Part shown: positions 11,632 through 41,392 of the stretch, piece by piece
Layout: each line of letters starts with the position of its first letter
Position numbering within the stretch: position 1 is the stretch's first letter
From: Mycolicibacterium monacense
GTDB lineage: Bacteria; Actinomycetota; Actinomycetes; Mycobacteriales; Mycobacteriaceae
Direction of reading: 5' to 3'
Assembly (NCBI RefSeq): GCF_010731575.1
Contig: NZ_AP022617.1
Span: 5,952,001-6,016,000, forward strand
Length of the DNA: 64,000 nucleotides
Notes under the pieces: model-generated
Seen by the model: only the letters and a program-made list of their open reading frames with translations
The model's database searches: none
Told to the model about the DNA's origin: nothing
Made by a program: the position numbers and the translations under genes

Positions 11632-11641
11632 CTCGGCGGTC

Positions 11642-11700: not shown

Positions 11701-11718
11701 CTCATGGAGGAGCTGCGC

Positions 11719-12045: not shown

Positions 12046-12053
12046 GGACTGCC

Positions 12054-26262: not shown

Positions 26263-26284
26263 GTGCCCCCGGCAGGATTCGAAC
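26263..26284. repeat. attL core (22-bp duplicate of tRNA-Arg 3' end)
   Basis: This stretch is identical over 22 bases to 41371-41392, which covers the acceptor and T-stem end of the minus-strand tRNA-Arg gene. Identity stops exactly at 26285 (T versus C). Only the tRNA 3' fragment is present, so it is an att duplicate and not a tRNA gene. Confidence 0.92.
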
Positions 26285-26376
26285 TAGCCGGATGGGCCGA
26301 TCTGTAACCCGTCTCGACGTGCGCTGATGGCGCTATAATCGCTGACAGCAGGACATATTGACCGTTGCCGATGTTA

Positions 26377-26424
26377 GGTTCTGTTGGGTTCTGTTTAGGC
26401 CCGTTATAGCCCGCTTATAGCCCG
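26377..26424. repeat. Left-end arm-type integrase site candidates and integrase leader
   Basis: Between attL and the integrase ATG are two copies of GGTTCTGTT (26377-26385, 26387-26395) and two copies of TTATAGCCCG (26404-26413, 26415-26424) with an 11-bp period. TTATAGCCCG recurs at the right end (41323-41332). Direct repeats near both ends that flank the core are typical of arm-type integrase-binding sites. A TATAAT at 26334-26339 is a candidate -10 for the integrase promoter. Confidence 0.7.
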
Positions 26425-26450
26425 AAAGTCGCCCGTTAGGAGCTGCCGCG

Positions 26451-27638
26451 ATGCCGCAGAAGAAGCCCGCCACCGCCACCACTGCTCGCAGCCGCCGAGG
26501 ATTCGGGCGGCTCCGCCAACGCGGGTCGGGCCGCTGGCAGGCGAGCTACCCGCACCACGGCGCGCTGCACTACGCCCCGGCGACGTTCCCGACGAAGGAC
26601 TCCGGCGCGTCGTGGCTGCAGAACGAGCGGGATCTGATCGACCTCGACCGCCGCAAGCCGGGCACCTGGACCCCGCCCGCCGAGCGGGTGACCAAGGGGG
26701 CGGCGCGCAAGCTCACGCTGCGCGACTACGCGAAGCCCTGGTTGGAGCACCGCAACCTCTCACCGCGCACCCGCGACAATTACGAGTACCACCTTGAGCG
26801 GAATATCTTGCCGACGCTGGGGGATTCGGCGCTTGCGGAGATCACCCCCGAGGACGTGCGCGTTTGGTTCACCGGGCTGGGCACCGAGCACCGGACCCGC
26901 AACGCACAGGCCTACGGCGTCCTGCAGGCTGTGCTAAACACCGCCGTGGATGACGGGCTGATGGACCGCAGCCCCGCCCGCATCAAGGGCGCGGCGGCGG
27001 TGAAGCACACCAAGCGGTCGGTGGTGCTGTTGGAGCCGGAGGAGTTGGTGGCGTTGGCCGACGCGATGCCCGAGGCGCTGCGGCTGACCGTGCTGCTCGC
27101 GGGATGGTGTGGACTCCGCCGAGGAGAGTTGTTCGCGTTGACGAGGGCCGACGTCACCGCCGACGCCACCGCACTGCGGGTGAGTAAGGCGGTGACGTTC
27201 CGGCACGGCAAGTTCGAGGCCGGGCCGACCAAGACCAAGGAGTCCAACCGCACCGTCACCGTGCCGCCTCACCTGCGCCCGATCATCGCCGCGCACCTCC
27301 GCCAGCACGTCGGCGAGGCCAAGACGGCATTGCTGTTCCCCGACCCGGTGACGGGCGGGTACTACGCCGAGGGCCGGTACCGCACACCGTTCTTCAACGC
27401 CCGGCAGGCCATCGGCAAGGATGATCTGCACTTCCACGATCTGCGGCACTTCGGCGGCGTGATGGCGGCAGTCGCCGGAGGCACAACCAAGGAGGTCATG
27501 GCGCGCCTCGGTCACGTCACCAGCGGCACGGCAATGCGCTATCAGCATGTCGCCGCCGGGCGCGCCGACGTGTTGGCTGATCGCCTGTCGGCACTCGCCG
27601 TCCCGGCGCGGTCGGGCGACGCGCCAGTATCGGCATGA
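26451..27638 (+). CDS. int: Tyrosine recombinase (phage-type integrase)
   Basis: A 395-residue integrase. The order is an N-terminal arm-binding region (about 1-85), a SAM-like core-binding domain (about 88-175; LSPRTRDNYEYHLERNILP) and the catalytic domain (about 190-380). Active-site residues visible are Arg223 (GLRRGEL), His329 and Arg332 (HFHDLRHFGG), His355 (ARLGHVT) and the nucleophile Tyr364 (AMRYQHV). It is the leftmost element gene, 166 bases inside attL, and should catalyse insertion into tRNA-Arg. The ATG has a good GTTAGGAG site upstream. Confidence 0.95.
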   Translation: MPQKKPATATTARSRRGFGRLRQRGSGRWQASYPHHGALHYAPATFPTKDSGASWLQNERDLIDLDRRKPGTWTPPAERVTKGAARKLTLRDYAKPWLEHRNLSPRTRDNYEYHLERNILPTLGDSALAEITPEDVRVWFTGLGTEHRTRNAQAYGVLQAVLNTAVDDGLMDRSPARIKGAAAVKHTKRSVVLLEPEELVALADAMPEALRLTVLLAGWCGLRRGELFALTRADVTADATALRVSKAVTFRHGKFEAGPTKTKESNRTVTVPPHLRPIIAAHLRQHVGEAKTALLFPDPVTGGYYAEGRYRTPFFNARQAIGKDDLHFHDLRHFGGVMAAVAGGTTKEVMARLGHVTSGTAMRYQHVAAGRADVLADRLSALAVPARSGDAPVSA

Positions 27639-27817
27639 AACCCCCACCGAAGCAACGGCTCTCAGATAGCAGTCGATATCTCAACGGAACCACTCGCGCC
27701 CTAAGCTATTCTTAGCGAGCCGGTCGCGTAGCCCCAGACCCGCTCTCACACTCCGTCTCAGTCTCCGCCCCCTCCAATTCCAGCCGGGGAAGATCACCAG
27801 ACGACGGAGCAAAACCA
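27639..27817. other. Intergenic region between integrase and first HTH gene
   Basis: This 179-bp stretch has no supported ORF on the coding strand. It contains a short palindrome CTAAG-CTATT-CTTAG (27701-27715) in a locally AT-rich segment and weak AGATA/TATCT arms just upstream. It is a reasonable place for the early promoter and an operator of the element, but no consensus promoter could be assigned. Confidence 0.35.
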
Positions 27818-28051
27818 GTGAGCGCGAAGACCGCCACCCCGCACTTCATTTCCCTGCAGGACGCCGCCACCCGCACCGGGTTCTCGGTGTTCACCTTCCG
27901 CGAGAAGATCGCCAGCGGCGAGCTACCCGCCTACCGGCTGTCCGACAAGCCCGGCAGCGCCATCCGCGTGAAGGTCGCCGACGTCGACGCGATGATGAAG
28001 CCGCTCATCCCGGCTGAGATTTACGCCGATCGCCAAGCCGGTGCTCGATGA
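27818..28051 (+). CDS. Small helix-turn-helix protein (excisionase-like)
   Basis: A 77-residue basic protein with one HTH of the MerR/excisionase kind: LQDAATRTGFSVFTFREKIASGELPAYRLS, ending in an IRVKVADVDAMMK wing. This matches the short helix-turn-helix 17 proteins often encoded beside tyrosine integrases. It could be the recombination directionality factor or an early regulator. GTG start with a GGGGAAG site further upstream. Confidence 0.65.
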   Translation: MSAKTATPHFISLQDAATRTGFSVFTFREKIASGELPAYRLSDKPGSAIRVKVADVDAMMKPLIPAEIYADRQAGAR

Positions 28052-28187
28052 CACCGGCTAGCTTGATAGCCGAAATCAGCAGCGCGACAACCCCTCCGGT
28101 GTCGGGTAGCGCGACTCTCGCTCGCTGCAAGTCTGCACCATCACTGAATAACGTCAACAGAAGCAACCCTATTCACAGAGAAGATGG

Positions 28188-28421
28188 GTGTGGCGCATGA
28201 CTGCTCTCGCCTTCGACAATCCCGATCTGCTGTGTCCGCCCAAGGACGTGGCCGAGTACCAGCACACCTCCGAAACGGCGCTGGCGCAGGAGCGGTGGCG
28301 CGGTGTTGGGCCGCGCTACCTCAAGCTCGGCAAGCGAGTGTTCTACCGCGCCGGTGACCTCAAGGCGTGGATGGACGACAACACGATCGAGCCGGGAGCA
28401 CCAGTGCCGCAACAGGAGTGA
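28188..28421 (+). CDS. Small helix-turn-helix protein (AlpA-like)
   Basis: A 77-residue protein with a winged HTH of the AlpA/excisionase type: LCPPKDVAEYQHTSETALAQERWRG, then GPRYLKLGKRVFYRAGDLKAWM. The YxKxGxxVxYRxxDLxxW pattern is diagnostic of helix-turn-helix 17 domains. GTG 28188 follows AGAGAAG; ATG 28197 is an alternative. It is the second such protein in the element and either one might be the directionality factor. Confidence 0.75.
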   Translation: MWRMTALAFDNPDLLCPPKDVAEYQHTSETALAQERWRGVGPRYLKLGKRVFYRAGDLKAWMDDNTIEPGAPVPQQE

Positions 28422-28539
28422 GAAACAGCGATGCCGCCCAGCGCGTCGTTTGCCTCGGACGCATGTGCCAGGCGGCATCACCACCAACGACTCCACCGCA
28501 GAGTCACGCCCTTCCGACGTCAACGAGAGGTACGGCCCG

Positions 28540-31077
28540 ATGTCCGACCAGAAGAACAACGCCCAGTCTAGCAATCGCGCTGCCGATCTGACGGCGCTGC
28601 TGAATCACGCGCCGAAGGCCGACGACCACAACGGCGTGCGCGACCACCTGCACGCGCTGGCGGGGCTGGGCTGCGCGCCGCTGCTGGTCTACCCGGCTAG
28701 CAAGAAGCCTGCCGATGTGCGCACACCGCAGCGGCGCAGCGCCGACGACCGCGCCGCCCGCGAGGCTGCTCAGGCGGCGGGTAACCCGAACCCGCAAAAG
28801 GTCAAGTCCGCCGCCGGGGTCCACCTCGCCAGCACCGACGTCGACACGCTCGACCGCTACCTGGACCACTACGTGAGGACGTTCGGCGATGCCGTGGAGG
28901 TCAACGTCGCGGTGTCGCTGGGGCGTAGCCGCCTGGTCGTGGTCGATTGCGACACCGCCGCGCAGCTCGGGGCGTTCCTGGCCGACGCCGAGGCCGACCC
29001 CGACACGGTGCCGACGGTGCGCACGCCCGGCCAACTCGGGCCGGACGGCGTGACGCTGGTCCACCGCGACGGCGGTCACTTCTACTTCACGGTGCCCGAA
29101 GGCATTGAGCTGCCGGAGCAGCCGGGGTCGATGAAGGTCGGCGGTGACGACGGGTATGCGGTCATCTGGGGCACCGGCAACTACGTCTTGACGCCTCCGA
29201 GCGTGCGGCCCGAGGGCACCTATGAGGCGACCGGCGAGCCGGTCTATGAGCTGCCTGGCTGGCTGGCCGAGGCGATCACCACGTACGGGCAGGGCTACGT
29301 CAGCCGCGCCACCGACGGTCACGCCCGCGCCGACACCAGTGCCGACCCGGTGGCGCGGTGGGGTGCTGGCGTGAGCTGGGCGGCGATCTTGGAGCCTGCC
29401 GGGTGGGTGGCGACGGGAAAGGCTGACGGCTGCGGGTGCCCGGTGTGGACCGCGCCGGGCGTACACGGCAGCCCGAAATCCGCCACCGCTCATGAGCCGG
29501 GCTGCCCGCAGTGGACCGACTCGCCGGACCCGCCGCTGCACATCTGGACCGACAACCCCGGTGAGCCGTTCGTCGGGCACATCGCCCGGCGCGGCACCGC
29601 CACCGTCAGCAAGCTGCAGGCGGTCGCGCTGCTCCACTACGACGACGACATGGGAGCCGCGATGACCGCGCTCGACCTCACCCCCGACATCGACGCCTTG
29701 GCGCTGGACGATGACCTGCCCGTCGACTTTGGGCGCACGGTCAAGGCAGACGACGACAGCAGCACTCCGCAGCTGCCCGAGGAGTTCTGGTCGGCGCATC
29801 CGACGCTGGAACACATCAGGCAGTTCGCCCACTACGGCGTCAACTCCGCCGACGCGGTGCTGGGTGCGGCGCTGGTGCGGCTGTCGGCGCACCTCGACCC
29901 GTGCGTGCGCATCGTGACCGGCGTCAAGCGCCCCCTGCCGCTCAACACGTTCGTCGGCATCGTCGGCTCGGCGGGCACCGGCAAATCGTCGGCCTACCAG
30001 GCGTCGGCTGACCTGCTCGACCTCAAGTTCGGTGATCCGATGCTCGGTGACCTCATCGCGCCCGCCGACCAGTGCCCGCCGGAGTTGCCGGTCGGCTCCG
30101 GCCCCGGCGTCGCCGAGGCCTTCATGGGCACGGTGATCGACCCCGGTGACCCGACGATGAAGACCAAGGTGCGCCGTCAGGTCCGGCACAAGGTTCTGCT
30201 GCACTCGGACGAGGGCGCGGGTCTGGTGTCGGGGATCATCGACACCAAGCGCGGCCAGGACATCGGCCCGACGCTGCGCGCTGCGTGGACGGGCGCGGTG
30301 CTGGGGCAGGCCAATGCGAGCGCCGAGCGCACCCGCGAGGTCCGCGACTACAGCCTGGGGCTGTGCGTCGGGTTCCAGTTGGAGGCGTTGGCGGCGCTGT
30401 CGACCGCCGAGCAGCTTGAGTACGGCACGCCGCAGCGGTTCGTGTACGTCTCGGCGACCGACCCCACCATCCCCGACGACGCACCGGATGACCCCGGCCC
30501 GCTGACCGTGCCGCTGCCTCACGGGCCGCTGCGCTACGACGCTGAGTTGCGTGCTCGGGCACGCCGGGAGGCTCTGGCGCGGGCGCGGGGTGACGGCGGG
30601 AACGACACCGACGACGACATGATGCAGGCCCACCGCCCGGCGCTCGTCGCCCGGTGCGCGGCGCTGCTTGTGGTGCTGTGCGATCCCGGTCGCACGGAGG
30701 TCAACGCGGGCGACGTCGCGTTGGCGGAGATGCTGCTGGACACCTCGGCGCAGCTGCACGGGATCGCGATGGAGTGGCGGCGGGAACGCGAAGCCTCCGA
30801 GCGTGAGCGCCAGTTGCAGGGCCGCATTCGTGAGCAGGTCGCCACCGCCGTCGCCCTCGACGGTCGGGCCGACGACATGGCGCGCCTCAACGAACGCATC
30901 CTGGCCTACGTCGATGACGCGGGCGGTTCCGTCGAGTGGGCGGGGCGCGCTGGGCTGCGCAAGACGAAGTTCAATGCCGGTGACCGCCCGCTGGCCGATG
31001 CGGCGTTGGTGCGGTTGGTAGTTGAGGACGGGCCGCTGGTGCGCGACGGCAACACTGTGCGTCGCCGTGTTAGCTGA
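28540..31077 (+). CDS. Primase-polymerase and P-loop ATPase replication protein
   Basis: An 845-residue protein. The first ~280 residues look like the bifunctional primase/polymerase domain of plasmids and phages: GCAPLLVYPASKKP, VAVSLGRSRLVVVDCD, DGYAVIWGTGNYVLTPPS. A small Cys/His cluster follows (DGCGCPVW through HEPGCPQW). The second half carries a Walker A at 476-484 (GSAGTGKSS) and a LLHSDEGAG segment resembling DUF3987-type helicase/ATPases. ATG 28540 is chosen for its GAGAGG site. It likely starts autonomous replication of the excised element at the repeats directly downstream. Confidence 0.82.
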   Translation: MSDQKNNAQSSNRAADLTALLNHAPKADDHNGVRDHLHALAGLGCAPLLVYPASKKPADVRTPQRRSADDRAAREAAQAAGNPNPQKVKSAAGVHLASTDVDTLDRYLDHYVRTFGDAVEVNVAVSLGRSRLVVVDCDTAAQLGAFLADAEADPDTVPTVRTPGQLGPDGVTLVHRDGGHFYFTVPEGIELPEQPGSMKVGGDDGYAVIWGTGNYVLTPPSVRPEGTYEATGEPVYELPGWLAEAITTYGQGYVSRATDGHARADTSADPVARWGAGVSWAAILEPAGWVATGKADGCGCPVWTAPGVHGSPKSATAHEPGCPQWTDSPDPPLHIWTDNPGEPFVGHIARRGTATVSKLQAVALLHYDDDMGAAMTALDLTPDIDALALDDDLPVDFGRTVKADDDSSTPQLPEEFWSAHPTLEHIRQFAHYGVNSADAVLGAALVRLSAHLDPCVRIVTGVKRPLPLNTFVGIVGSAGTGKSSAYQASADLLDLKFGDPMLGDLIAPADQCPPELPVGSGPGVAEAFMGTVIDPGDPTMKTKVRRQVRHKVLLHSDEGAGLVSGIIDTKRGQDIGPTLRAAWTGAVLGQANASAERTREVRDYSLGLCVGFQLEALAALSTAEQLEYGTPQRFVYVSATDPTIPDDAPDDPGPLTVPLPHGPLRYDAELRARARREALARARGDGGNDTDDDMMQAHRPALVARCAALLVVLCDPGRTEVNAGDVALAEMLLDTSAQLHGIAMEWRREREASERERQLQGRIREQVATAVALDGRADDMARLNERILAYVDDAGGSVEWAGRAGLRKTKFNAGDRPLADAALVRLVVEDGPLVRDGNTVRRRVS

Positions 31078-31082
31078 CGACC

Positions 31083-31286
31083 GTCCCCCCGAGGCCGGGG
31101 GGACTGCGGGGGGACGGTCCCCCCCGACCCCCTCGCGGGCGCGCTCTATACGATTCAAATGACCTACCTATATTACCTGGTCAGAGAGTTGAACACCTTT
31201 GTCGGGCAAAAGGATTCGACCTCTCTCGCGCCCGTATGGCCGTCCCCCCGTCCCCCCGTCCCCCCGGTTAACGGGGTCGGGGGGAC
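31083..31286. other. Candidate replication origin: GTCCCCCC iterons around an AT-rich core
   Basis: In the 346-bp gene-free gap after the primase gene, the octamer GTCCCCCC occurs eight times. Direct copies start at 31083, 31117, 31242, 31250 and 31258 (the last three exactly in tandem); inverted copies lie at 31097-31104, 31108-31115 and 31279-31286. The copies form hairpins on each side of a markedly AT-rich segment (about 31145-31220). Iterons flanking an unwinding region next to a rep/primase gene is the layout of satellite and plasmid origins. Termination hairpins are an alternative for the left block. Confidence 0.55.
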
Positions 31287-31423
31287 TGTCGTTTCGGGCC
31301 GGAATCGAAGCGCGTCACGGTTAGCGGGCGGGAGCTGCGGGGTCGGGGCGGCGGGCGTCACCTCACCCGACCTCTGCACGGTCATGCGGTACGAATGCGG
31401 TAGGCGGAGAGGAGAACCGGACC

Positions 31424-31885
31424 ATGCCACCCAAGATGCCCACCTATGCGTCGCGTGAGCGTGCCGCCGAGGCGTTCCAGCTGCGGGCGTCGCGGTACTC
31501 CTGGCGCGAGGTCGCCGACCGCCTCGGGTACCGCTCGATCGGCGCGGCGCAGACCGCCGTCAATCGTCACGTCGAGCGGCTGCGGAGAGAACCGACAGCC
31601 ACCTCGATCGAGGCGCACAAGTTCGCGATCGAGACCCGCACCCGTGCGATGTCCGCCCGCTTCACCCAAGCGTTCAAGGCGGGTGATGACGACACCCTCG
31701 TCACGCTCAACCGTGAGATCGCCCGCAACGAGGCAGAGTTGGCGAAGCTGGCCGGGCTGTACGCACCCGAGAGGGTCGACGTGAACGTGACCCAGACACT
31801 GCCCGCGCTGATCGCCGACACGCGACAGCGGATGCTCGAAGTGCTCGACGCCGAAGTTGTTGACCCGAAGGAGATCACCCGATGA
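31424..31885 (+). CDS. Small terminase subunit-like DNA-binding protein
   Basis: A 153-residue protein. An N-terminal HTH (YSWREVADRLGYRSIGAAQTAV) is followed by helical segments with TLVTLNREIARNEAELAKLAG, then LYAPERVDVNVTQ, a C-terminal tail resembling those of actinophage small terminases. TerS proteins choose the DNA for packaging. A strong GGAGAGGAG site precedes the ATG. It overlaps the next gene by four bases. The call rests on fold pattern and the presence of TerL in the same element. Confidence 0.55.
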   Translation: MPPKMPTYASRERAAEAFQLRASRYSWREVADRLGYRSIGAAQTAVNRHVERLRREPTATSIEAHKFAIETRTRAMSARFTQAFKAGDDDTLVTLNREIARNEAELAKLAGLYAPERVDVNVTQTLPALIADTRQRMLEVLDAEVVDPKEITR

Positions 31886-32418
31886 CCACCATGACCAAGC
31901 GCGATGCCGTCGATGCAGCTATGTCCGTTGCGCAGCAGATCGCCGAGGGTCGACTGGACCCGGCCACGTTGCAGCAGCAGGCCGTCGCCGAGTGCCGCGC
32001 CCTGGCCGGTGAGGTGAGCGGGCCGGACAGTCCGCTGTGGAGCCTGCAGGTCGACATCGCCCGCCAAGTGCTGTCGCTCGGCGGCATCCCCGCCACCGAG
32101 TTGGCCGAGTGGGCAGCCGTGTTCCGCCGTCGTGCGCCAGAAGCGTCGGAACCGCCCGTTCCACACGATGATCCATTGCCGGCGGTTTCGTCGCTCTCCG
32201 TTGCGCCTAGCCATGATTCCGGTGATGCGGAGGCCGACGTCAGCGACGACGAACCCGAACCCGCTGCACTGCAGGGCACCTCGATCGTGTCGGCACTGGC
32301 CGCGCTCGCTTCCGCTGCCCAGCAGGCTCACGCCGAGCCTGCACCGCAGCGTCGGGCCGACGGCGACGGTTACGACCCGCTGCGCGGTTTCAACCCCGGC
32401 GCAACGCGGCGGCGTTGA
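31882..32418 (+). CDS. Protein of unknown function in satellite-like element
   Basis: A 178-residue protein overlapping the TerS-like gene by ATGA. The N-terminal ~75 residues are helical (AVDAAMSVAQQIAEGRLD) and the middle is acidic and Pro-rich (DVSDDEPEPAA), so it is probably disordered there. The tail is basic (GFNPGATRRR). No known domain is recognised. A packaging accessory or scaffold-like role is possible only by position. Confidence 0.6.
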   Translation: MTTMTKRDAVDAAMSVAQQIAEGRLDPATLQQQAVAECRALAGEVSGPDSPLWSLQVDIARQVLSLGGIPATELAEWAAVFRRRAPEASEPPVPHDDPLPAVSSLSVAPSHDSGDAEADVSDDEPEPAALQGTSIVSALAALASAAQQAHAEPAPQRRADGDGYDPLRGFNPGATRRR

Positions 32419-32447
32419 CTCCACCCCAACAGAGGAGAATGAATCAC

Positions 32448-32624
32448 ATGGCAAATGACAGCGGACTCAACGATGCGGACTGGCGCGCCTCGGGGTCGAA
32501 TCGCGGCTCGACGGCTGAGCCGACGTCCGACCTCGGCGATGACTGGCGGGCCACGCGCCCGAACGATGCGTTCATCGCGTCGCTGGCGACGACGGGTGAG
32601 CCGGGCTGGCGTCCGAGTCGCTGA
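32448..32624 (+). CDS. Small hydrophilic protein with internal DWRA repeat
   Basis: A 58-residue protein starting at an ATG preceded by AGAGGAG ten bases away. It contains two similar units, DADWRASGSNRG and GDDWRATRPND, and a third weaker GEPGWRPSR. It is very polar and likely unstructured. Function unknown. Confidence 0.5.
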   Translation: MANDSGLNDADWRASGSNRGSTAEPTSDLGDDWRATRPNDAFIASLATTGEPGWRPSR

Positions 32625-32671
32625 CCTGAGACCCGTTCAGCAGCAAGGCAATTGCTCGACGTCTAGCTAGG

Positions 32672-32767
32672 GCGTACCCCTACGCGACGCCCGGCACGGC
32701 GGCATCGAGCGTCTACCTAGGTTGGTAGACGGCTTGATAGGCGGTCGTCTAATATGAGTCTTAGACG
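32672..32767. promoter_or_regulatory. Inverted repeats upstream of serine recombinase (res-like site)
   Basis: Three inverted repeats precede the recombinase ATG: GCGTA-CCCC-TACGC (32672-32685), CGTCTACC-N6-GGTAGACG (32710-32731) and CGTCTAA-N8-TTAGACG (32746-32767). The last two share the CGTCTA arm and their centres are 36 bp apart. Serine resolvases act at sites made of several such dimer-binding subsites, often next to their own gene, where binding also represses transcription. Confidence 0.6.
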
Positions 32768-32793
32768 TTAAACCAACAGACTCAGGAGACACG

Positions 32794-33363
32794 ATGACCA
32801 AGGGCCAGACCGTCGGCTACGTGCGGGTTAGCACCGTCGACCAGAACACCGACCGCCAGCTAGACGGGCTTGAGTTGGACAAGGTGTTCACCGATCGCGC
32901 CAGCGGCAAGGACACCAACCGGCCCGAGATGCAGGCGTGCCTCAAGTACCTGCGCGACGGCGACCAGCTGGTAGTCCACTCGATGGACCGGCTGGCCCGG
33001 TCGCTGGTGGACCTGCGCCGCACTGTCGATGAGCTGACCGGGCGCGGCGTGACCATCCGGTTCGTCAAGGAGGGTTTGACCTTCACCCGCGACACCAACG
33101 ACCCCTGCGCGGTGCTGATGCTGTCGGTCATGGGTGCGGTGGCCGAGTTCGAGCGCAGCCTGCTGCTCGAACGGCAGCGTGAGGGCATCGCCATCGCCAA
33201 GACCAAGGGCGTCTACAAGGGTCGAGTGCCGTCACTGACCGACGACCAGGCGCAGCTGGTCGCGACCCGTCTCGCTGAGGGCGAGTCCGCCTCGGCGCTG
33301 GCCCGCGAGTTCGGCGTGAGCCGGGCGACGGTCTACAACACCCGCAATCGCGTGCCCGCCTGA
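32794..33363 (+). CDS. Small serine recombinase (resolvase/invertase)
   Basis: A 189-residue recombinase. The catalytic domain starts GYVRVSTVDQ with nucleophile Ser13 and includes DRASGKDTNRPEM, HSMDRLARSLVDLR and MGAVAEFERSLLLERQREG. The C-terminal Hin-type HTH reads SALAREFGVSRATVYNTRN. The size fits Tn3-type resolvases and DNA invertases, not large serine integrases. With a tyrosine integrase in the same element, its job is more likely multimer resolution or a switch than integration. Confidence 0.92.
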   Translation: MTKGQTVGYVRVSTVDQNTDRQLDGLELDKVFTDRASGKDTNRPEMQACLKYLRDGDQLVVHSMDRLARSLVDLRRTVDELTGRGVTIRFVKEGLTFTRDTNDPCAVLMLSVMGAVAEFERSLLLERQREGIAIAKTKGVYKGRVPSLTDDQAQLVATRLAEGESASALAREFGVSRATVYNTRNRVPA

Positions 33364-33545
33364 CGCGGTAATGGGCGGCAATGTCCGCTCGACGCGCCAA
33401 CGGACCTCGGTTGATTTTGGTCAGCCGGGGTCTTTGCGTTTGCCCTGGATCGAGGCAGTTTCCACCCTCGCATCCGGTTAGTTTGGTTACCGTAACAGCG
33501 TGTCCCGCAACGGATTTGGCCGTGTTGCTTGCACTGTCGAGTGGC

Positions 33546-33845
33546 ATGATTGGCGCTATGACAGCGACCACGCCCACCCCCGACCACCCCCGCACCAGGC
33601 CGATGGAAAGCTGGCGTGGCCGCAAGGCCGTGCTCGCCAGCCGAGGCGAGGTCGACGGGCCTCGGGTTGCCGAATGTGATGCGGCCCTTGCCTGGTGGCG
33701 CATCCGCAGTCGCTTGGTCGTGGAGATGGGCATCACCGAGGAGCGCGCTGAGTCGCTGCTGGACTTGATCGTCCCGCCTCCCGAGGGTGCCGCCGTGCAG
33801 CCGTCGGAGGCTGCCGAGGCCGACGCTGCGGTGGTGACCCCGTGA
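33546..33845 (+). CDS. Protein of unknown function in satellite-like element
   Basis: A 99-residue protein; ATG 33558 is an equally possible start. The middle (SWRGRKAVLASRGEVDGPRV, CDAALAWWRIRSRLVVEMG) looks helical and the C-terminus is acidic and Ala/Glu-rich. It overlaps the following GTG by four bases. In the ~180 bp upstream, a GTTAC-C-GTAAC palindrome (33486-33496) may be an operator for this gene group. No domain recognised. Confidence 0.55.
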   Translation: MIGAMTATTPTPDHPRTRPMESWRGRKAVLASRGEVDGPRVAECDAALAWWRIRSRLVVEMGITEERAESLLDLIVPPPEGAAVQPSEAAEADAAVVTP

Positions 33846-34576
33846 CCACCAGCGAGGAGGCGACCGAGAAGTTGCAGCGGCGCATCCCCGAGCCGGGAGA
33901 TGGGCGGAGCCGGGGCGCAGTGATCAGCTACAACACCCCCGCCCACCGTGCCGAGCACCGTCCGCAGTCCCGGCCCGTCTACACGCAGTCCGACCTTCGC
34001 GAGCGTCGCCGGGCACAACTGCCGGTCACGCTCGAAACCGGTTGGTCGTTGTCGACGGAGGTGGCTGCGATCTGCGCCCCGCTCGCCGAGGCGGTCGCCG
34101 CCGCGAAGTGCCCGGCGGGACACTGGCGCGCCGTGGATCAGCTCACCGATGCCGTGCATGAGACCGTCAGCGCCGCTGTCGGATTGCTCGCCAGGGCCGA
34201 CGCCGAGCGTCGGTGCCGACACCTCGGAGTCGATGACCGGGGCAGGTCGATTCAGGCGCTGGTCGATCTGGCCGAGCGGCCCAAGCTGCCCGAGATCACC
34301 GACGACGACCTGGCGGCGGGCACCTGGGCGGCGACGCTGACTGCATTGGCGCAGCCGTACTCCGCAGACCTGTCCGGCCTCCTCGGACGGGCGAGGACCA
34401 CGACGGTCTCCGATCGGATGCTGACGGCGCTGCGGGAGGTCGATCTGGCCGCACTCGCCCTGCAACGTCGCCTCGATCGCGACGGCAAGGCGCAGGCCCG
34501 CGCCCCCAAGCCCGCCGCTGAGACCGAGGCCGACCGCAAGCGCGCCGAACTCGCCGCGATGGGAGTCCAGCTGTGA
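33842..34576 (+). CDS. Predicted helical protein of unknown function
   Basis: A 244-residue protein. A disordered basic N-terminus (about 1-60) precedes helical segments such as STEVAAICAPLAEAVAAAK and ALREVDLAALALQRRLD. The C-terminus is charged (ETEADRKRAELAAMG). It overlaps the gene before and after by four bases, so it is translationally tied to the 34573-35370 product. Position before a capsid-like gene could fit a scaffold or head accessory role, but nothing in the sequence proves it. Confidence 0.55.
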   Translation: MTTSEEATEKLQRRIPEPGDGRSRGAVISYNTPAHRAEHRPQSRPVYTQSDLRERRRAQLPVTLETGWSLSTEVAAICAPLAEAVAAAKCPAGHWRAVDQLTDAVHETVSAAVGLLARADAERRCRHLGVDDRGRSIQALVDLAERPKLPEITDDDLAAGTWAATLTALAQPYSADLSGLLGRARTTTVSDRMLTALREVDLAALALQRRLDRDGKAQARAPKPAAETEADRKRAELAAMGVQL

Positions 34577-35370
34577 CCGCGCCCGTGACCACCTACGACA
34601 GGCCGTTGCCGGTGTCGTTCGAGCCGCCGGTGCAGAATCCGGCACCCCACGGGCTGTATGCGGCGACCACCTGGACCGACATCGCCCCCAATCAGCCCTC
34701 GCGCCACCTGAGCGGTGTCGAGGTGCGGCCCGTCGGCAACTACGGCGGCGAGGGCGCATCCGGCATCTGGCCCAACGACTCCTGCGCCACCGGCACGGAG
34801 CCGGACCCGGCGTTGCGCAAGGAGGGCACCCGCCCCGAAGGTGTGGACCCGTTCGAGTCGGTGACGGTGTGGGCCTACGACGAGTGCGACCTGACCGCGC
34901 CGAGCCGCGAGGAGGTGCAGGCCCGCGCCCTGCAGATCATGCGGTTGGAGGAGCAGACCGCCGTCGAGCGTGAGTTCGCCGAGCGCATGAAGGCCGACGT
35001 CGGTGTCATCGACCAGACCGCCGCCAGCCTCAAGCTCGCCGTCGGCTACCTCGAAGGCCTCTTCGCGCTCTCCAACACCGTCGGCTTCATCCACGCCGGG
35101 GCGCAGTGGGCCTCGCAGGAGTTCGGTCTGGTGATCCGCTCCGGCACCCGCCTGGTGTCCCCGTTGGGCCATACGTGGGTGTTCGGCGGCGGGTACGTGG
35201 ACGCTCTGGACCATGTGCTGATCGCGACCTCGCCCACGTTCGGGTGGCGCGACGAGGTGCAGTTGCGCACCGCAATTGATGAGCGCCACAACACGTTCGC
35301 CGCCGTCGCCGAGCGCACGGTGCTGGTCGGCTATGAGGCCGTGATCGGTGCAGTGGAGATAGTGCCGTGA
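34573..35370 (+). CDS. Candidate phage capsid-like structural protein
   Basis: A 265-residue protein. The N-terminal half has SRHLSGVEVRPVGNYG and PFESVTVWAYDECDL, and the C-terminal half has NTVGFIHAGAQWASQEFGL, HTWVFGGGYVDAL and AERTVLVGYEAVIGAVEI. This order of strands and Gly-rich turns resembles actinophage head proteins often annotated as major capsid or hypothetical. The similarity is from pattern memory, without a search, so the call is tentative. If right, the island could build its own small head. Confidence 0.4.
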   Translation: MTAPVTTYDRPLPVSFEPPVQNPAPHGLYAATTWTDIAPNQPSRHLSGVEVRPVGNYGGEGASGIWPNDSCATGTEPDPALRKEGTRPEGVDPFESVTVWAYDECDLTAPSREEVQARALQIMRLEEQTAVEREFAERMKADVGVIDQTAASLKLAVGYLEGLFALSNTVGFIHAGAQWASQEFGLVIRSGTRLVSPLGHTWVFGGGYVDALDHVLIATSPTFGWRDEVQLRTAIDERHNTFAAVAERTVLVGYEAVIGAVEIVP

Positions 35371-35681
35371 CCGCCACTGCCGCTGTCGATTACGCCGCGC
35401 CCGAGGTCTACACCGGGCCGCGCTGCCAGGCGTGCGACGGGCCGTGCTGGCAGTGGAAGGGCAACGTGTGGGGCTACACCTGCACCGCCTGCATCGAGCG
35501 CCACCTCGCCGAGAGCGCGGCGAAGGGCGCTGAGCGCGACCGCCGGGACCGTCAGAAGTTGGCGCGCAAACGGCTGGACGCCCACGACGACAACGACTAC
35601 TCCTCTGTCGATGGCGGGCGTCGGGGTGGTGCTGGAACTGCTGCTATGTGCCGCAGCGCCGCCCCGACGTCTCGCCGATAA
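35367..35681 (+). CDS. Small zinc-binding protein
   Basis: A 104-residue protein overlapping the previous stop. Two Cys pairs (CQACDGPCW and YTCTACIERH) form a likely zinc-binding knuckle in the first half. The second half is strongly basic and charged (ERDRRDRQKLARKRL), which suggests nucleic-acid contact. Unrecognised family. Confidence 0.55.
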   Translation: MTATAAVDYAAPEVYTGPRCQACDGPCWQWKGNVWGYTCTACIERHLAESAAKGAERDRRDRQKLARKRLDAHDDNDYSSVDGGRRGGAGTAAMCRSAAPTSRR

Positions 35682-35708
35682 GTGAACAACCAACCGAAAG
35701 GACACCCG

Positions 35709-36290
35709 ATGACAACCAAGAAGCGCCGCCTGACACGCGCCGACCTGACCGACCGCGAGCGGCGGCACCTCGCCGCCTGCGTCCATGAAGCAGGACACGC
35801 CGTGGCCTGTGCGATGCTCGGCGGCGAGATTCACTCGGCTGTCGTCTCCAACGGTCGCATCTTCGGCCTGCAGGGGTCGACCACCTTCGCGCAGCTGCCC
35901 GACACCATCGACGCCCGAGTGACATATGCGGGTCTGTGGGCCGAAGCGCGGTGGGAACACGGGCCGCGCCCGACGACAGCCCAGCTGCGGCACCTGCGCC
36001 GGACGAACGGTCACGACGACGCCCGGCTGTGCGCCGCCGCTACCGCTGACGTGTACGGCTACGGCGACCCGTCGAGGGAGGCGCGCAGTGCGGTGCCGCC
36101 GCTGCTCGATCGCGCATGGCCTGCGGTCGTGCGGGTTGCACAGCAGCTGTTCACCAGCGGTGAGGCGACCCACGACGACGTGTGCAAGGCGCTGGGCATC
36201 ACCGACGGCGGCGGGACGGGCAGCAGCCAGATCGCCAGCCTGCGTGCCGGTCTGCGATCGGTGCCCAAGATCGCCGCCGTGCCCGCATAG
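35709..36290 (+). CDS. HEAGH zincin-like protein (M41-type protease fold)
   Basis: A 193-residue protein with the metalloprotease motif HEAGH at residues 26-30 in the context CVHEAGHAVACAMLGGEI, as in FtsH (M41) and related zincins. A distal Glu/Asp ligand may lie in YAGLWAEARWE. No AAA domain is present. Such short HEAGH proteins occur in actinobacterial phages and plasmids. ATG 35709 follows AAAGGA. It might be a maturation or anti-host protease; its substrate is unknown. Confidence 0.7.
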   Translation: MTTKKRRLTRADLTDRERRHLAACVHEAGHAVACAMLGGEIHSAVVSNGRIFGLQGSTTFAQLPDTIDARVTYAGLWAEARWEHGPRPTTAQLRHLRRTNGHDDARLCAAATADVYGYGDPSREARSAVPPLLDRAWPAVVRVAQQLFTSGEATHDDVCKALGITDGGGTGSSQIASLRAGLRSVPKIAAVPA

Positions 36291-36377
36291 GCCTTCCGAT
36301 CACCGCGTCGAACCTCGGCGGTGCGGTGGTCGGCCCACTCCAACGACACCAACGACAACACCACCGAGGAGAACACC

Positions 36378-36650
36378 ATGTCCGTCATCACCATTGACCG
36401 CCGTCCTGGCAGCCGCCGTCTCGACTATCTGCCCGACTACTGCCCCCGCTGCAACCCGGCGGGCGACCGGGCCGACCGCCCGGTTCGGCTCGCCTCGCTG
36501 ACGGAGCCGACCTCAATCACCTGGCCCGGTGGGCGGCGGCTGATCTGCGAGTACCAGTGCAATGCCTGCAGCCACCAGTGGGTGCGCACCGACTTGTGGA
36601 GCGCCGAGCAGGCCGGGTTCGACCCCAAGCAACGGAGGACTGCCGCATGA
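36378..36650 (+). CDS. Small zinc-ribbon protein
   Basis: A 90-residue protein with a zinc ribbon built from YCPRCNP (about residues 21-25) and YQCNACSHQW (about 61-68). ATG 36378 follows GAGGAGAA. It overlaps terL by ATGA, so the two are coupled. A packaging or transcription accessory role is possible. Confidence 0.65.
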   Translation: MSVITIDRRPGSRRLDYLPDYCPRCNPAGDRADRPVRLASLTEPTSITWPGGRRLICEYQCNACSHQWVRTDLWSAEQAGFDPKQRRTAA

Positions 36651-38164
36651 GCGCCGCAACCGAAAGCCCGATCACGCTACTGAGCGCCGCTGCCGCGCTC
36701 CGGCGGGCCTACGGTCGGCGGCTGCCCGACAACCCTGCTGACCTGGCGCGGCTGCTGGACCGCAAGTTCGTGGTGACGCCTACGGTCAGGCTGCTCTCGG
36801 ACATCGCCGTGTGCGCCGTCGAGGAACCCGACTGCCGCGATATCGTGACCACCCCGCCGCGCACCGGCAAGAGTCGCCTGCTGGCGATCTGGACAGCCGT
36901 GTGGGCGCTGTCGCGCAACCCCGACCTCGAAGTGGTGATCGTCAGCTACTCCGACGAGTTGGCCCAGGCACACAGCCGCGAGGCCCGGCGGATCATCGCC
37001 GAGCACTCCGACTCCCTCGGCATCCGGCTGGCCCAGGATGCCCGCGCAGTGGGTCGGTGGCAGGTGGAGGGTCGGCGCGGCGGGCTGCTGGCGACCGGAA
37101 TCAACAGCGGCGTCACGGGTTTCGGTGCCGACCTGCTGGTGATAGATGACCCGGTGAAGGATGCCCAAGAGGCCGACTCCGCTGCCCACCGCCGCCGAGT
37201 CGAGGGCGAATACCGCTCCACGCTCGCGCCGCGTGTTCACCCCGGCGGGTCCACCCTGCTAGTCATGACCCGCTGGCACCCCAACGATCTGGCCGGAGTG
37301 CTGCTCGATGACGAACCCGACGTGTGGCGGCACACCAACGTGCCCGCCGTCGCCGAGACCGGCATCCACGATGCGCTGGGGCGCGCACCCGGCACAGCGA
37401 TGACCTCTGCACTCGGCTTCACGGCGGACCACTACGCAGCCGCTCGCCGCACCTCCGGCGAACGCGCCTGGTACGCCCTGTATGAAGGGGTGCCCGCGAC
37501 ACCCGAAGGCGGTCTGATCAAACGAGAGTGGCTGGAACGGTGGCGTCTCCCGGCTGCACCGACCGGCGCGGTGAAGACAGTGATCGGCGTCGACCCGTCA
37601 GACTCCGGCTCCGGCGACTCCTGCGGCATCGTGGCGGCGAGCCTCACGGCGGAGGGCGTGGTGGCGGTGATCGCGGACGTCTCCGCACCAATGACGAGCG
37701 ATCAATGGGCCAGGGCTGCTGTCGATCTCGCAGTCGATGTCGGAGCCAGTGAGATTGCGGTGGAGGGCTTCGCGGCCCGGTCGACGTACCGCCGTGTCGT
37801 CACCGATGCGCTGCGCCGGGCCAAGCTCAACCGCCCCATCAACGTGACCACCTGGCCTCCCAAGGGCAGCGGGCGCGGAGGCGGCGATTCGATGGCCCGG
37901 TCGTCGGCGCTGCTGCAGGGTCTCGAAGTCGGCACCACCCGCATCGCCGGGCACCTGCCCGACCTCGAACAGTCAGCGGTGACCTGGCAGGCCGGACAGC
38001 ATCAACCCGACAGCCTCGCCGCGACGGTCGTGGCCCACGACGTGTTGGTCCACTCGATCGGTCAGCAGTGGGGTTTCGCGTCACCTCTGGACAGCGAGCG
38101 CCGCGCCCGCGAGGGCACGATCACGTCGATTCCGGCGTACATGCGCCGTCGGGTGGGCGGGTGA
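36647..38164 (+). CDS. terL: Phage terminase large subunit
   Basis: A 505-residue packaging motor. The N-terminal ATPase has Walker A at 69-76 (TPPRTGKS), Walker B at 163-168 (LLVIDD) and a coupling segment LLVMTRWHPND. The C-terminal RNase H-like nuclease starts at GVDPSDSGSGDS (about 314-325) with the first acidic residue at Asp316, followed by EIAVEGFA. It cuts and pumps DNA into procapsids. No portal gene follows, which is unusual for a complete phage. Confidence 0.92.
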   Translation: MSAATESPITLLSAAAALRRAYGRRLPDNPADLARLLDRKFVVTPTVRLLSDIAVCAVEEPDCRDIVTTPPRTGKSRLLAIWTAVWALSRNPDLEVVIVSYSDELAQAHSREARRIIAEHSDSLGIRLAQDARAVGRWQVEGRRGGLLATGINSGVTGFGADLLVIDDPVKDAQEADSAAHRRRVEGEYRSTLAPRVHPGGSTLLVMTRWHPNDLAGVLLDDEPDVWRHTNVPAVAETGIHDALGRAPGTAMTSALGFTADHYAAARRTSGERAWYALYEGVPATPEGGLIKREWLERWRLPAAPTGAVKTVIGVDPSDSGSGDSCGIVAASLTAEGVVAVIADVSAPMTSDQWARAAVDLAVDVGASEIAVEGFAARSTYRRVVTDALRRAKLNRPINVTTWPPKGSGRGGGDSMARSSALLQGLEVGTTRIAGHLPDLEQSAVTWQAGQHQPDSLAATVVAHDVLVHSIGQQWGFASPLDSERRAREGTITSIPAYMRRRVGG

Positions 38165-38175
38165 CCAACGGAGTG

Positions 38176-38263
38176 TGCCCGTGGGCAGTGTCTGGAATGT
38201 CGGACCCGCCCGGTACTAGATAGGCGACACTCTGATGAGCTTGCGGGCGTATGCACCGCCCGC
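38176..38263. other. Hairpins between terL and methyltransferase
   Basis: TGCCC-GT-GGGCA lies at 38176-38187, just after the terL stop, and GCGGGCG (38243-38249) pairs with CGCCCGC (38257-38263) around a 7-base loop. Between them are AT-rich possible -10 boxes such as TACTAG (38214-38219). This 150-bp gap likely ends the packaging operon and starts an independent transcript for the methyltransferase cassette. Confidence 0.45.
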
Positions 38264-38314
38264 CTGCATAACATCCGGCTAACACCCTCTCAGCAGACAG
38301 GAACTAAGCCCAAG

Positions 38315-39454
38315 ATGGCCGCACGCCCCGCCCGTAAGGAGAGAAAATCGGCGACGCCGAAACGGCTGCTCCGCGTGGTTGAAGACCAAGACCAGCCAGC
38401 CTCGGATCGACCGTTCAACCTGCATCGTGGTGATGTCCGTGAGGCCTATGCGAACTGGCCGCAGCCTGCAACGATCGTCAGTGACGGCGCTTACGGGGTC
38501 CGTGGGTTCCACGGCGATACCACTGATGCTGCTGGCTTGGTCGATTGGTACTCGGGCCATATCAAGATGTGGACGCAAGCGGCCAGTCCTGGCACCACGT
38601 TGTGGTTCTGGAACACAGAGGTCGGCTGGGCCACAGTCCACGCGGAACTAGACCGGCAAGGGTGGGACTACGTTCAAACCGTCATCTGGGACAAGGGGCT
38701 ATCCCACATCGCCGGCAATGTGAACGGGAAGACGATCAGACAGTTCCCTGTCGTGACAGAGGTGTGCGCCCTCTATCAACGGCGGTTCGAGGTGCCCACC
38801 GAATCTGGCGAGTTGATCGGGGTCCAGAACTGGCTACGCCATGAGTGGATGAGGTCGGGTCTTCCCCTGTATCTCTCCAACGAGGCGTGTGCAGTGCGCA
38901 ACGCTGCAACGCGCAAGTACCTGACCAAAGATTGGCTTTGGTACTTCCCGCCCGGCGTGATGGTGGAGCGGATGGCTGCCTATTGCCATGAGAATGGCTT
39001 CGAGTCAGGTAGACCGTATTTTTCCATTGACGGCGAGAACTCGGTGACAGCCGAGGAGTGGGACCGGATGCGTTACCCATGGACGCACGCCCACGGTCTG
39101 ACCAACGTGTGGAGGCGTGGGCCGCTGCACGACGGAGAGCGATTAAAGGGGTCGATGCGGCGGTCTGCTCCCCGCGTCTATCGGCCAACCAGGGCGTCCG
39201 CTACGCACCTGAACCAGAAGCCCTTGGAGTTCATGGAGCGCTTGGTCCATGCAGTGACCAAAGAAGGCGACGTGGTTTGGGAGCCATTCGGCGGATTGGC
39301 GTCGGCTTCGGTGGCCGCTGTCGCACTGGGACGCCGGGCCTTCGTCGCCGAACGCGACCCCCACTTCGCCGACATCGCAGGCGAACGTTTGAACGACGCC
39401 GTGGCCAATCGCCAGATCGACGCCGAGACAGCTGCGCTTGGGGATTCTGAGTGA
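38315..39454 (+). CDS. DNA methyltransferase, N4/N6 (beta-class) type
   Basis: A 379-residue MTase with catalytic motif IV first: SDGAYG at residues 56-61 in place of the usual SPPY/DPPY. A C-terminal motif X-like HLNQKPLEFMERLV follows, then motif I as VWEPFGGLASASVAAVALG (about 321-339) with ERDP. The IV-to-I order indicates the beta class, which modifies adenine or cytosine amino groups. Codon use is less GC-biased than in neighbours (for example a TTA codon near 39144), pointing to separate acquisition. It overlaps the next gene by GTGA. Confidence 0.9.
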   Translation: MAARPARKERKSATPKRLLRVVEDQDQPASDRPFNLHRGDVREAYANWPQPATIVSDGAYGVRGFHGDTTDAAGLVDWYSGHIKMWTQAASPGTTLWFWNTEVGWATVHAELDRQGWDYVQTVIWDKGLSHIAGNVNGKTIRQFPVVTEVCALYQRRFEVPTESGELIGVQNWLRHEWMRSGLPLYLSNEACAVRNAATRKYLTKDWLWYFPPGVMVERMAAYCHENGFESGRPYFSIDGENSVTAEEWDRMRYPWTHAHGLTNVWRRGPLHDGERLKGSMRRSAPRVYRPTRASATHLNQKPLEFMERLVHAVTKEGDVVWEPFGGLASASVAAVALGRRAFVAERDPHFADIAGERLNDAVANRQIDAETAALGDSE

Positions 39455-40461
39455 GTCCCGGCGACGCGTCCGGTGAATCGCCCGCACTTGAGGGTGACGG
39501 CGCACTCCCAACAAGAGAAGAACTCGACTTAGAGACCAAACGAGGCAAGCTCGTCCGCAATGTGCGCGATGCCATGGCGGCCCTGCCTGTGCATTTCTCC
39601 TCCCAGACCTACATAGAGGGGCTAGAGGCAGGTGATCTGTTCTCGCTCAACTCGATGCTGGGCGGCAGCATCGAAATCCAAGTGGTCCAAACGTTAAACC
39701 GCCTGCGAGCGGTGTGGGACCCTGACGAGGAGTGGGAGGAGTACGCCTTCATCCGCTCGTCACAGACATTCCCAGACGTGCGCCTGGTGACCAATAGCGC
39801 CCAGTTAATCGCACAAGGTGACCAGTTCGGCATGGGTATTGAGCTGAAAGGCTGGTACTTACTCAGCCGTGAAGGGGAGCCGTCATTCCGCTACACCGTG
39901 ACGAGGGACGCCTGCGACATCCATGACCTATTGGTGGTGGTGCCTTGGCATCTCAAGAATGTCCTGAGCGGCGAGCCAACGGTCTACAAGCCATTTGTGG
40001 AATCAGCTCGTTTTGCAGCCGACATGCGTAATCACTATTGGTCGGTCGGCAGGAGGGCGAAAGATAAGGCTAGAGGCGCTGAGAAAGCAGACAACTACTA
40101 CGAAATCACGCCGCCTGCCGGAGCCACGCCTTACCCACCGCCGAGGATGAATATCGCCGACCATGCCAACACCGACGGCGGCAAGAACTTCGGAAGAGTA
40201 GCTCGATCCGAGGGGCTAATGGACGGTTACGTGCTCGAAACTTTGAGCACGGCGGTGTCGGGCATTGAGGCCCGGCACTGGGTGGGGTTCTTCAAAACGT
40301 ATGCCGAAAGCTCGCAGCGCGATGAACTGCACGCCAGGATCGCCCGACAACTGGCCAGGGACCGTCTGGCCCAGAACATCGACAACGACGACCTTCAAGG
40401 GATGCTTCGAGAGTGGATCAGCAGACTGCCGCTGGCAGGGGACGAGGCGGATAGTGATTAG
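39451..40461 (+). CDS. Candidate restriction endonuclease partner of the methyltransferase
   Basis: A 336-residue protein overlapping the methyltransferase stop by four bases. A PD-(D/E)xK-like core is suggested by FPDVRLVTNS, then GIELKGWYLL with an ExK in a strand, then HDLLVVVPWHL. Base composition is low for the region and includes TTA and AGA codons. Coupling to a beta-class MTase makes a type II restriction enzyme the best guess. No search was possible, and a nuclease-free modification accessory is the alternative. Confidence 0.65.
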   Translation: MSPGDASGESPALEGDGALPTREELDLETKRGKLVRNVRDAMAALPVHFSSQTYIEGLEAGDLFSLNSMLGGSIEIQVVQTLNRLRAVWDPDEEWEEYAFIRSSQTFPDVRLVTNSAQLIAQGDQFGMGIELKGWYLLSREGEPSFRYTVTRDACDIHDLLVVVPWHLKNVLSGEPTVYKPFVESARFAADMRNHYWSVGRRAKDKARGAEKADNYYEITPPAGATPYPPPRMNIADHANTDGGKNFGRVARSEGLMDGYVLETLSTAVSGIEARHWVGFFKTYAESSQRDELHARIARQLARDRLAQNIDNDDLQGMLREWISRLPLAGDEADSD

Positions 40462-40500
40462 CCGCCACGTTGTTGCCCCATCGCCGGATGAACCGTAGCT

Positions 40501-41190
40501 ATGTCGGAGGATCCAGGAATACTGCCGTCCATGACGGACGCGGGGGAAGAGAAGGCGTACGACAACTGGGCGAAGTATCGGTCGGCATGGTGGACGCGCT
40601 ACCTCACCGGAGACCTCGCACACTTCTGGCCGTCGCAACTCGACCAGTACGAGCCGGACTCAGGCGGCTACCGCTGGATATCGCGGACCGGCGTATTCGA
40701 CATTGCAGCCACCCAATCCGAACACCGCGAGCTTCACACAGCAGTCGCCGCCTACGTCTGGGGTGTCGGCTTCACCGCTCGCATGTCCATTGGCCGACTT
40801 GTCCGCGCCTTCACGGCCAACGCCACCACCGTGGAGGGTAACTTGCGCCGCGCCGCGGCGATCCTCGCTGATGGTGGCCCGGTCGCGGCTTACGAGTCGA
40901 TGCTGGCGGGCGGCCCGAATCGGACCAAGTTCATGGGTCCGGCGTACTTCACCAAGTTCCTGTTCTTCACCGGCTACCGCGACGTGGGTGCCGAGCTGCG
41001 CCCCCTGATCCTCGACAGGCGGGTGGCTATCGCACTGCGCGAGCGCGGCGTATTCGGCCCCAAGGCAGGCAACGCCGATTGGCCCAGCGAGCTTTACCGG
41101 CGGTATCTAACCTTCTGCCACGAACAGAACCCGACCGACCCTGCGGCAGTCGAGGCCGATCTGTTCAATGAAGGTCGCGATCCCGGTTGA
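40501..41190 (+). CDS. OGG-fold (8-oxoguanine DNA glycosylase-like) protein
   Basis: A 229-residue protein with an HhH-GPD-like arrangement: WAKYRSAWWTRYL, AAYVWGVGFTARMSI, AAAILADGGPVAAYESML, then KFMGPAYFTKFLFFTGY and PLILDRRVAIAL. This matches the bacterial proteins annotated as OGG fold, where GPAxFTKFLYF carries the helix-hairpin-helix region. It is the third gene of the methyltransferase cassette, 39 bases after the endonuclease. ATG 40501 is used; ATG 40531 is an alternative. It may act on modified bases or as a defence effector. Confidence 0.65.
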   Translation: MSEDPGILPSMTDAGEEKAYDNWAKYRSAWWTRYLTGDLAHFWPSQLDQYEPDSGGYRWISRTGVFDIAATQSEHRELHTAVAAYVWGVGFTARMSIGRLVRAFTANATTVEGNLRRAAAILADGGPVAAYESMLAGGPNRTKFMGPAYFTKFLFFTGYRDVGAELRPLILDRRVAIALRERGVFGPKAGNADWPSELYRRYLTFCHEQNPTDPAAVEADLFNEGRDPG

Positions 41191-41322
41191 CGGGCGGCTG
41201 CACCGCTACGGGGCGCAGCAATTCGCGAAGACGGGCGCGCTGCTCTGCGTCAGCGGTGGGGCGGCGTCCACGATCTTCTTGATGTACTCGCGGTGGTCGT
41301 CGGTCGCCACGGCGAGACCCCC

Positions 41323-41343
41323 TTATAGCCCGGATGTAGCCCG
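41323..41343. repeat. Right-end arm-type integrase site candidates
   Basis: TTATAGCCCG at 41323-41332 is identical to the two left-end repeats, and a second, variant copy ATGTAGCCCG follows at 41334-41343 with the same 11-bp period. They lie 28 bp from the attR core. The gap 41191-41322 holds no supported gene. Confidence 0.7.
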
Positions 41344-41370
41344 GTATCGGTGAAAACCCACATCTACATG

Positions 41371-41392
41371 GTGCCCCCGGCAGGATTCGAAC
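41371..41392. repeat. attR core within tRNA-Arg 3' end
   Basis: These 22 bases equal 26263-26284. Starting one base outside the tRNA, they cover the discriminator, acceptor 3' strand and most of the T arm. Insertion therefore restored an intact tRNA at this end. Confidence 0.92.

Follow-up and report, generated by a model that had tools for sequence, protein, structure and literature searches.

Organization of the Island

The stretch of Mycolicibacterium monacense DNA analyzed here (the window, 64,000 nt in full) contains a 15,130-bp island at positions 26263–41392 that is probably an intact phage satellite, one that integrates at a tRNA gene and would be induced and transferred by a helper phage. 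The island is bounded by a 22-bp direct repeat, GTGCCCCCGGCAGGATTCGAAC, whose copies at 26263–26284 (attL) and 41371–41392 (attR) lie 15,108 bp apart. An intact tRNA-Arg(CCT) gene (41369–41444, minus strand), the integration target, contains the right copy in its 3′ portion. Such 22-bp repeats are expected about 1e-4 times by chance in a 64-kb window according to our own arithmetic, which does not count the adjacency of a tRNA gene and an integrase. A bounded island at an intact tRNA-Arg had been proposed in an earlier note on this DNA, and the repeat, its spacing and the tRNA gene were all recovered.

All genes assigned in the island are rightward. Next to attL lies the gene of a tyrosine integrase (26451–27638; PF00589, E 1e-11; phrog_1, E 3e-56), followed by those of an excisionase-family helix-turn-helix (HTH) protein (27818–28051; TIGR01764), a second small HTH-like protein (28197–28421; 12 of 34 satellite loci have a related gene) and a PrimPol-type primase/polymerase with a DUF3987-type part, assigned to replication (28540–31077; PF09250; phrog_906, E 1e-136). 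Further to the right, an all-helical protein (33842–34576) is encoded directly upstream of a capsid pentamer, or vertex, protein with a predicted HK97 fold (34573–35370; PHROG 779, E 4e-100). After a small cysteine-rich, zinc-ribbon-like protein recognized from its sequence (35367–35681; relatives in 24 of 34 loci) come a zinc-protease-like protein identified by its HExxH motif (35682–36290), another small zinc-ribbon-like protein, likewise recognized from sequence (36321–36650; 17 of 34 loci), and the terminase large subunit (TerL; 36647–38164; PF03237; phrog_38, E 4e-82). The profile matches bear out the integrase, primase and TerL of the earlier note, show one of its HTH proteins to be of the excisionase family and identify its capsid-like candidate as a homologue of phage major capsid pentamer proteins.

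Between the primase and the helical protein are encoded an HTH DNA-binding protein (31424–31885; phrog_645), an adjoining conserved protein (31882–32418; phrog_27872), a small serine resolvase/invertase (32794–33363; PF00239, E 2e-36) and a conserved unknown protein (33381–33845). The first of these had been called TerS-like. It matches phage DNA-binding and “RNase E” entries and no annotated terminase small subunit (TerS), and a TerS role is possible and unproven; its relatives occur in seven phage records, of the Dori, Mao1 and prophiT46-2 types only. The resolvase, the HExxH protein and a lower-GC, restriction-modification-like cargo block (38315–41190) were absent from the earlier gene list. 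When nine island genes were compared with those of L079, a related element that shares this tRNA-Arg site, ratios of nonsynonymous to synonymous substitution (dN/dS) were 0.04–0.53, with 0.04 for the excisionase-family gene and with 391 of 845 codons alignable for the primase. These genes, TerL among them, are under purifying selection.

Distribution and Gene Content of the Satellite Family

The pentamer protein was found in 41 of 297 genomes of the genus, at 44 places including three in the M. monacense genome itself. The other 41 places were all fetched, up to 20 kb each, and classed by tblastn and phage-derived hidden Markov models (HMMs) as 32 satellite-type loci and nine full prophages. 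A satellite-type locus, in a few cases truncated, is thus carried by 32 of the 297 genomes (31 others and M. monacense). Among 80 IMG/VR loci, seven were satellite-type and 73 phage-like. The satellite set used below (n = 41) consists of the 32 loci, the two M. monacense islands and the seven IMG/VR loci; L048 is the same as L108, which leaves 40 distinct members. A pattern-limited scan of GTDB contigs yielded 35 pentamer loci, some from genomes already sampled. Four of them are phages (L181, L191, L197, L203), one is of unclear class (L204) and the other 30 are satellite-type, including loci beyond the genus in Gordonia (L180, L187), Rhodococcus (L182) and Tsukamurella (L186, L189). Two loci have a more complex layout: in L057 there are two gene sets and two oppositely oriented pentamer genes, and L074 resembles two adjoining or rearranged elements.

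The pentamer protein of the window is 62–65% identical to “major capsid pentamer protein” entries of mycobacteriophage records. With HMMs built from 59–73 phage sequences each (eight for the tape measure), portal, MuF, tail tube, adaptor and tape measure were found in none of the 41 satellites within the stretches fetched. All nine full prophages matched the first four models and seven matched the tape measure. The pentamer model matched every satellite and the TerL model 32 of 41, and the hexamer appeared as an N-terminal piece only, in two of 41. The GTDB loci agree, with portal, MuF, tail tube and adaptor in none of the 30 satellite-type loci, a hexamer fragment in one (L192, from the same genome as L067) and TerL in 18. 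The HMM search of the unknown open reading frames (ORFs) therefore uncovered no hidden head and tail set, in keeping with the earlier claim that recognizable portal and tail genes are lacking. A complete prophage of Dori or cluster B type was considered for the island and rejected, TerL and the pentamer being present without portal, MuF, whole hexamer or tail genes. Most satellites, the island of the window included, have the pentamer gene upstream of TerL, whereas phages have the two the other way round. A minority (L064, L073, L075, L077, L173, L186, L195, L201) have TerL first.

The satellites share genes that none of the nine prophage stretches contains: those of the helical protein (40 of 41 satellites), the HExxH protein (39, the stretches without it, L051 and L053, meeting contig ends), the phrog_645-type protein (38), the phrog_27872-type protein (37) and, less widely, the window types of integrase (29) and primase (11). 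The helical and HExxH proteins, whose genes flank the pentamer gene, had no match among 50,697 phage records. The helical protein, a candidate scaffold or size factor, gave a model with a predicted local distance difference test (pLDDT) score of 87.1 in which no fold was recognized and for which no PDB fold match was found. The HExxH motif is kept in all 39 HExxH proteins. In two loci, L067 (12907–13731) and L069 (12968–13762; both in oriented copies), this protein opens with a stretch of about 65 residues corresponding to the start of the phage hexamer (E 5e-9 and 5e-14; with a profile of that N-terminus, 1e-15 and 2e-25). The two are close relatives, and the fusion was probably a single event. 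In HK97-type phages, an N-terminus of this kind acts as a scaffold domain. The fusion ties the HExxH protein to head assembly and suggests that it enters the procapsid.

Island Size and Recent Movement

The satellites are of closely similar length. Two counts, pooled with four duplicates left out, gave 24 islands with a tRNA-anchored repeat, of which 20 span 14.2–16.5 kb and three are truncated (8.7, 8.3 and 5.1 kb). The 24th is the second M. monacense island, which a 4.5-kb tandem duplication has lengthened to 20.3 kb. In the first count, the 16 full islands average 15,470 bp (standard deviation 697), and the record of L079, in which the methyltransferase block is absent, still measures 14,979 bp. 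For comparison, the cluster B2 phage Rosebush is described as having a head of triangulation number T=9 for 67.5 kb (PMC7150772). By simple arithmetic, scaling this head by volume predicts a capacity of about 20 kb at T=4 and 13 kb at T=3, so that 15–16.5 kb would fit a T=4 head and not a T=3 head.

The second M. monacense island (C1, about 703.1–723.4 kb, at tRNA-Arg CCG) is 99.6–99.7% identical over its full length to an island in tRNA-Arg TCT of Mycolicibacterium tusciae DSM 44338. The chromosomes of the two species are only about 71–72% identical around the tRNA-Arg(CCT) of the window, where M. tusciae has no island and the flanking gene lies 2.0 kb from the tRNA. Given this disparity, the sister island is a case of recent, undated interspecies transfer with a change of site. 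Its tandem duplication (99.87% identical; C1:709483–718476, L007/L008) comprises two pentamer genes and is absent from the M. tusciae copy. The family is thus integrated, bounded and mobile and has no complete head and tail set, which is how phage satellites are defined in general.

Exchange of Pentamer Genes With Phages

Satellite TerLs and pentamers appear to differ in ancestry. For the same 70 loci, the TerL tree requires two changes between satellite and phage labels and does not reject a single satellite clade (approximately unbiased test, p-AU 0.2). The pentamer tree requires eight, five of them forced by well-supported branches, and rejects such a clade (p-AU 0.0001). The full set of 115 pentamers requires 11 changes, seven of them forced. 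These are quick trees with several long branches, and they are compatible with satellite TerLs of one lineage and pentamers of more than one. In the window itself, TerL has its nearest phage relatives in the Dori/prophiT46-2 type (65% identity to the prophiT46-2 TerL) and the pentamer in LilMcDreamy and the Acadian group, which means that the packaging and vertex parts do not share one history.

A Proposed Role for the Vertex Protein

It is likely, by analogy and from gene content, that the island supplies its vertex protein to the hexamers of a helper and packages itself in small heads, as is done by the Ccm protein of SaPIbov5, a Staphylococcus aureus pathogenicity island (SaPI). Ccm is described as forming the pentamers of small capsids and shifting assembly to T=4 (PMC8569155). 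In the sequence of events that we propose, the integrase and the excisionase-like protein would move the island in and out of the chromosome, and the primase would copy it. The helper would be an infecting phage with a two-protein shell of separate hexamer and pentamer, such as one of cluster B or Dori type, and would provide hexamer, portal, protease and tail. The satellite would contribute the vertex protein and its own, perhaps specific, TerL, and probably also the helical and HExxH proteins encoded on either side of the vertex gene; satellites without TerL may use the motor of the helper. Assembly would be steered to small heads, predicted to be T=4, with room for about 15 kb of satellite DNA and not for a helper genome of 60–70 kb. 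A further and more tentative idea is that this family of Mycobacteriales uses the vertex protein as an exchangeable adaptor, each satellite keeping its own partners and, if it has one, its TerL lineage while re-acquiring the pentamer from phages to fit the hexamers of its current helper, with the HExxH protease, fused in one lineage to a phage hexamer N-terminus, entering the procapsid and aiding the building or maturation of small heads.

Several observations weigh against this interpretation. The “pentamer” label is an annotation in phage records, and the protein has no sequence match in the PDB. Satellite and phage pentamers are not consistently told apart by any residue (the best column, chosen post hoc, has a median p of 0.06), and for this reason the pentamer itself may not be what sets size. 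The T=4 head is a prediction from arithmetic. TerL went undetected in nine of 41 satellites and 12 of 30 GTDB loci, some of them cut by contig ends, and since the TerL-less L068, L070, L190 and L192 span 14.6–16.3 kb, an own TerL is not universal. Two phage hexamers had no match in the host genome, an empty result that alone is not proof; the helper is on this account probably an incoming phage. No excised or circular form of the island was seen, and the L079 record is classed as linear. Finally, L198 from Mycolicibacterium canariasense has a long tape-measure ORF (11524–14436, E 1e-198) directly after the HExxH gene, the only one among the 30 satellite-type GTDB loci. It extends to the end of the fetched stretch and may be a tail gene within a satellite or part of an adjoining prophage.

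The strongest alternative, which we regard as unlikely, is that the satellite pentamer acts only in compatibility or sabotage, poisoning or blocking helper heads as a form of anti-phage interference, and that satellite DNA enters full-size heads as multimers. The many swaps of pentamers with phages, which left no consistent satellite signature, and the defence-type cargo beside TerL in several islands would accord with such a role. The narrow range of 14–16.5 kb, however, is what a small-head limit would be expected to produce, and almost every satellite retains the pentamer alongside the helical and HExxH genes.

Far less probable is an eroded or defective prophage that kept an integrase, a primase, one capsid gene and a terminase by chance. 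TerL and the pentamer are clearly of tailed-phage origin, a few relatives are truncated and L198 has its tape-measure ORF, but dozens of loci, some of them in other genera, show the same reduced set of genes, the sister island moved recently between species, and in most satellites the pentamer precedes TerL in opposition to the phage order. Purifying selection and the satellite-only genes, which are absent from the nine prophages and two of which have no match in the 50,697 phage records, also speak against it. Together with the narrow sizes, these last two observations contradict the possibility, named as a refutation in the earlier note, that the relatives are all eroded copies of one full prophage. 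An integrative defence island with phage genes as decoys or regulators, moved by conjugation or generalized transduction only, would explain the restriction-modification-like cargo between TerL and attR and is equally improbable. A Pfam scan of 16 island ORFs revealed neither a relaxase nor a transfer gene, whereas constraint on TerL is maintained, and what stays the same from island to island is the pentamer, helical and HExxH set and not the cargo.

If supply of the vertex protein by the satellite is borne out, it would be a second case, after Ccm, of capsid control through the vertices, here in phages with a separate vertex-protein gene, and vertex control of capsid size would become directly testable. 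The family, present in about one tenth of the 297 genomes sampled, is open to experiment, and mycobacteriophages of these groups are well collected. Because the pentamer should match the shell type of the helper, helper range may be predictable from this one gene.

Relation to Known Satellites

A close parallel in working is with SaPIbov5-type cos SaPIs, in which a satellite HK97-fold protein occupies the pentamers and the helper protein the hexamers, as set out in PMC8569155; here the position is predicted from homology. Ccm is reported to be a homologue (24% identity) of the single helper capsid protein (PMC8569155), whereas the protein described here is of the kind that forms the pentamers in shells built from two separate proteins. 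In addition, unlike SaPIbov5, many islands of the present family have a TerL and nearly all have an HExxH protein. The island would work like a Ccm-type SaPI and is not classed as one. Capsid-forming phage-inducible chromosomal islands (cf-PICIs) have in common with it an own terminase, a capsid-related gene and an integrase (PMC10690885), and the HK97 fold, predicted here, is also shared (EcCI2 capsid, 9gyi). In the account of PMC10690885, the genes of cf-PICIs include those of the major capsid protein, a protease, the portal and connectors; HMM search found no portal, MuF/protease, adaptor or whole hexamer here, and the island is thus not a cf-PICI.

Candidate Mycobacterium PICIs, defined by an integrase and a major capsid gene, were reported in 2023 (Abad et al., PMC10654092). 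Some of them lie at tRNA genes and some have terminase and replication genes, as here, and the island likewise combines an integrase with a capsid protein, in this case of pentamer type. The main text of that report never uses the word “pentamer” (PMC10654092), and overlap with the present family is possible. The suggestion of the earlier note that this could be an undescribed mycobacterial satellite family thus stands as to a coherent family and needs amendment in that candidate mycobacterial PICIs are already in print (PMC10654092). What appears to be new, within the literature searched, is a family defined by a pentamer-only contribution to the shell, satellite-only assembly genes, pentamer exchange and recent movement. 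The Streptomyces elements MulchRoom and MiniFlayer are also satellites of actinobacterial phages with packaging genes of their own; according to PMC10690885 they carry portal, major capsid and scaffold without a primase, unlike the island described here. The small integrated elements phiRv1 and phiRv2 of M. tuberculosis are called PICI-like in PMC10654092, and no M. tuberculosis record was among the 35 loci of the pattern-limited GTDB scan.

Variable Cargo Between TerL and attR

The slot between TerL and attR holds cargo that varies among islands whose pentamer, helical and HExxH genes are constant. In the window it consists of a type II N6/N4 DNA methyltransferase (38315–39454; PF01555; PADLOC MTase_II, E 3e-18), a weakly supported putative type II restriction enzyme (39451–40461; PADLOC REase_II, E 2e-4) and an OGG-like protein (40501–41190; PF21790, E 1e-41), all encoded rightward in a block with a GC content of 61–62%, compared with 65–72% around it. 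Of 30 predicted cargo ORFs, 20 were scanned against Pfam (11 matched, nine not) and 10 with PADLOC (four matched), the right boundary of the cargo being guessed for some loci. L175 carries an Mrr type IV enzyme with an OGG protein, L178 an HNH/McrA-like enzyme with an OGG protein, and L179 and L202 an M78/HTH protein with DUF4411. The last pair (L202, 13914–15508, minus strand; RmrA-like in PADLOC) looks like a toxin-antitoxin or regulator pair. Such varied restriction-type cargo could influence the phage susceptibility of the host.

In three islands (window, 40501–41190; L175:15100–15783; L178:16029–16739) the OGG-like gene (PF21790) is the cargo gene nearest attR and adjoins three different nuclease systems, namely type II restriction-modification-like, Mrr and HNH type IV. 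The same gene occurs in L041/L178 and L043/L175. L041 has a second integrase beyond its OGG gene, at the right end (oriented position 19186), which suggests a neighboring element at the same site.

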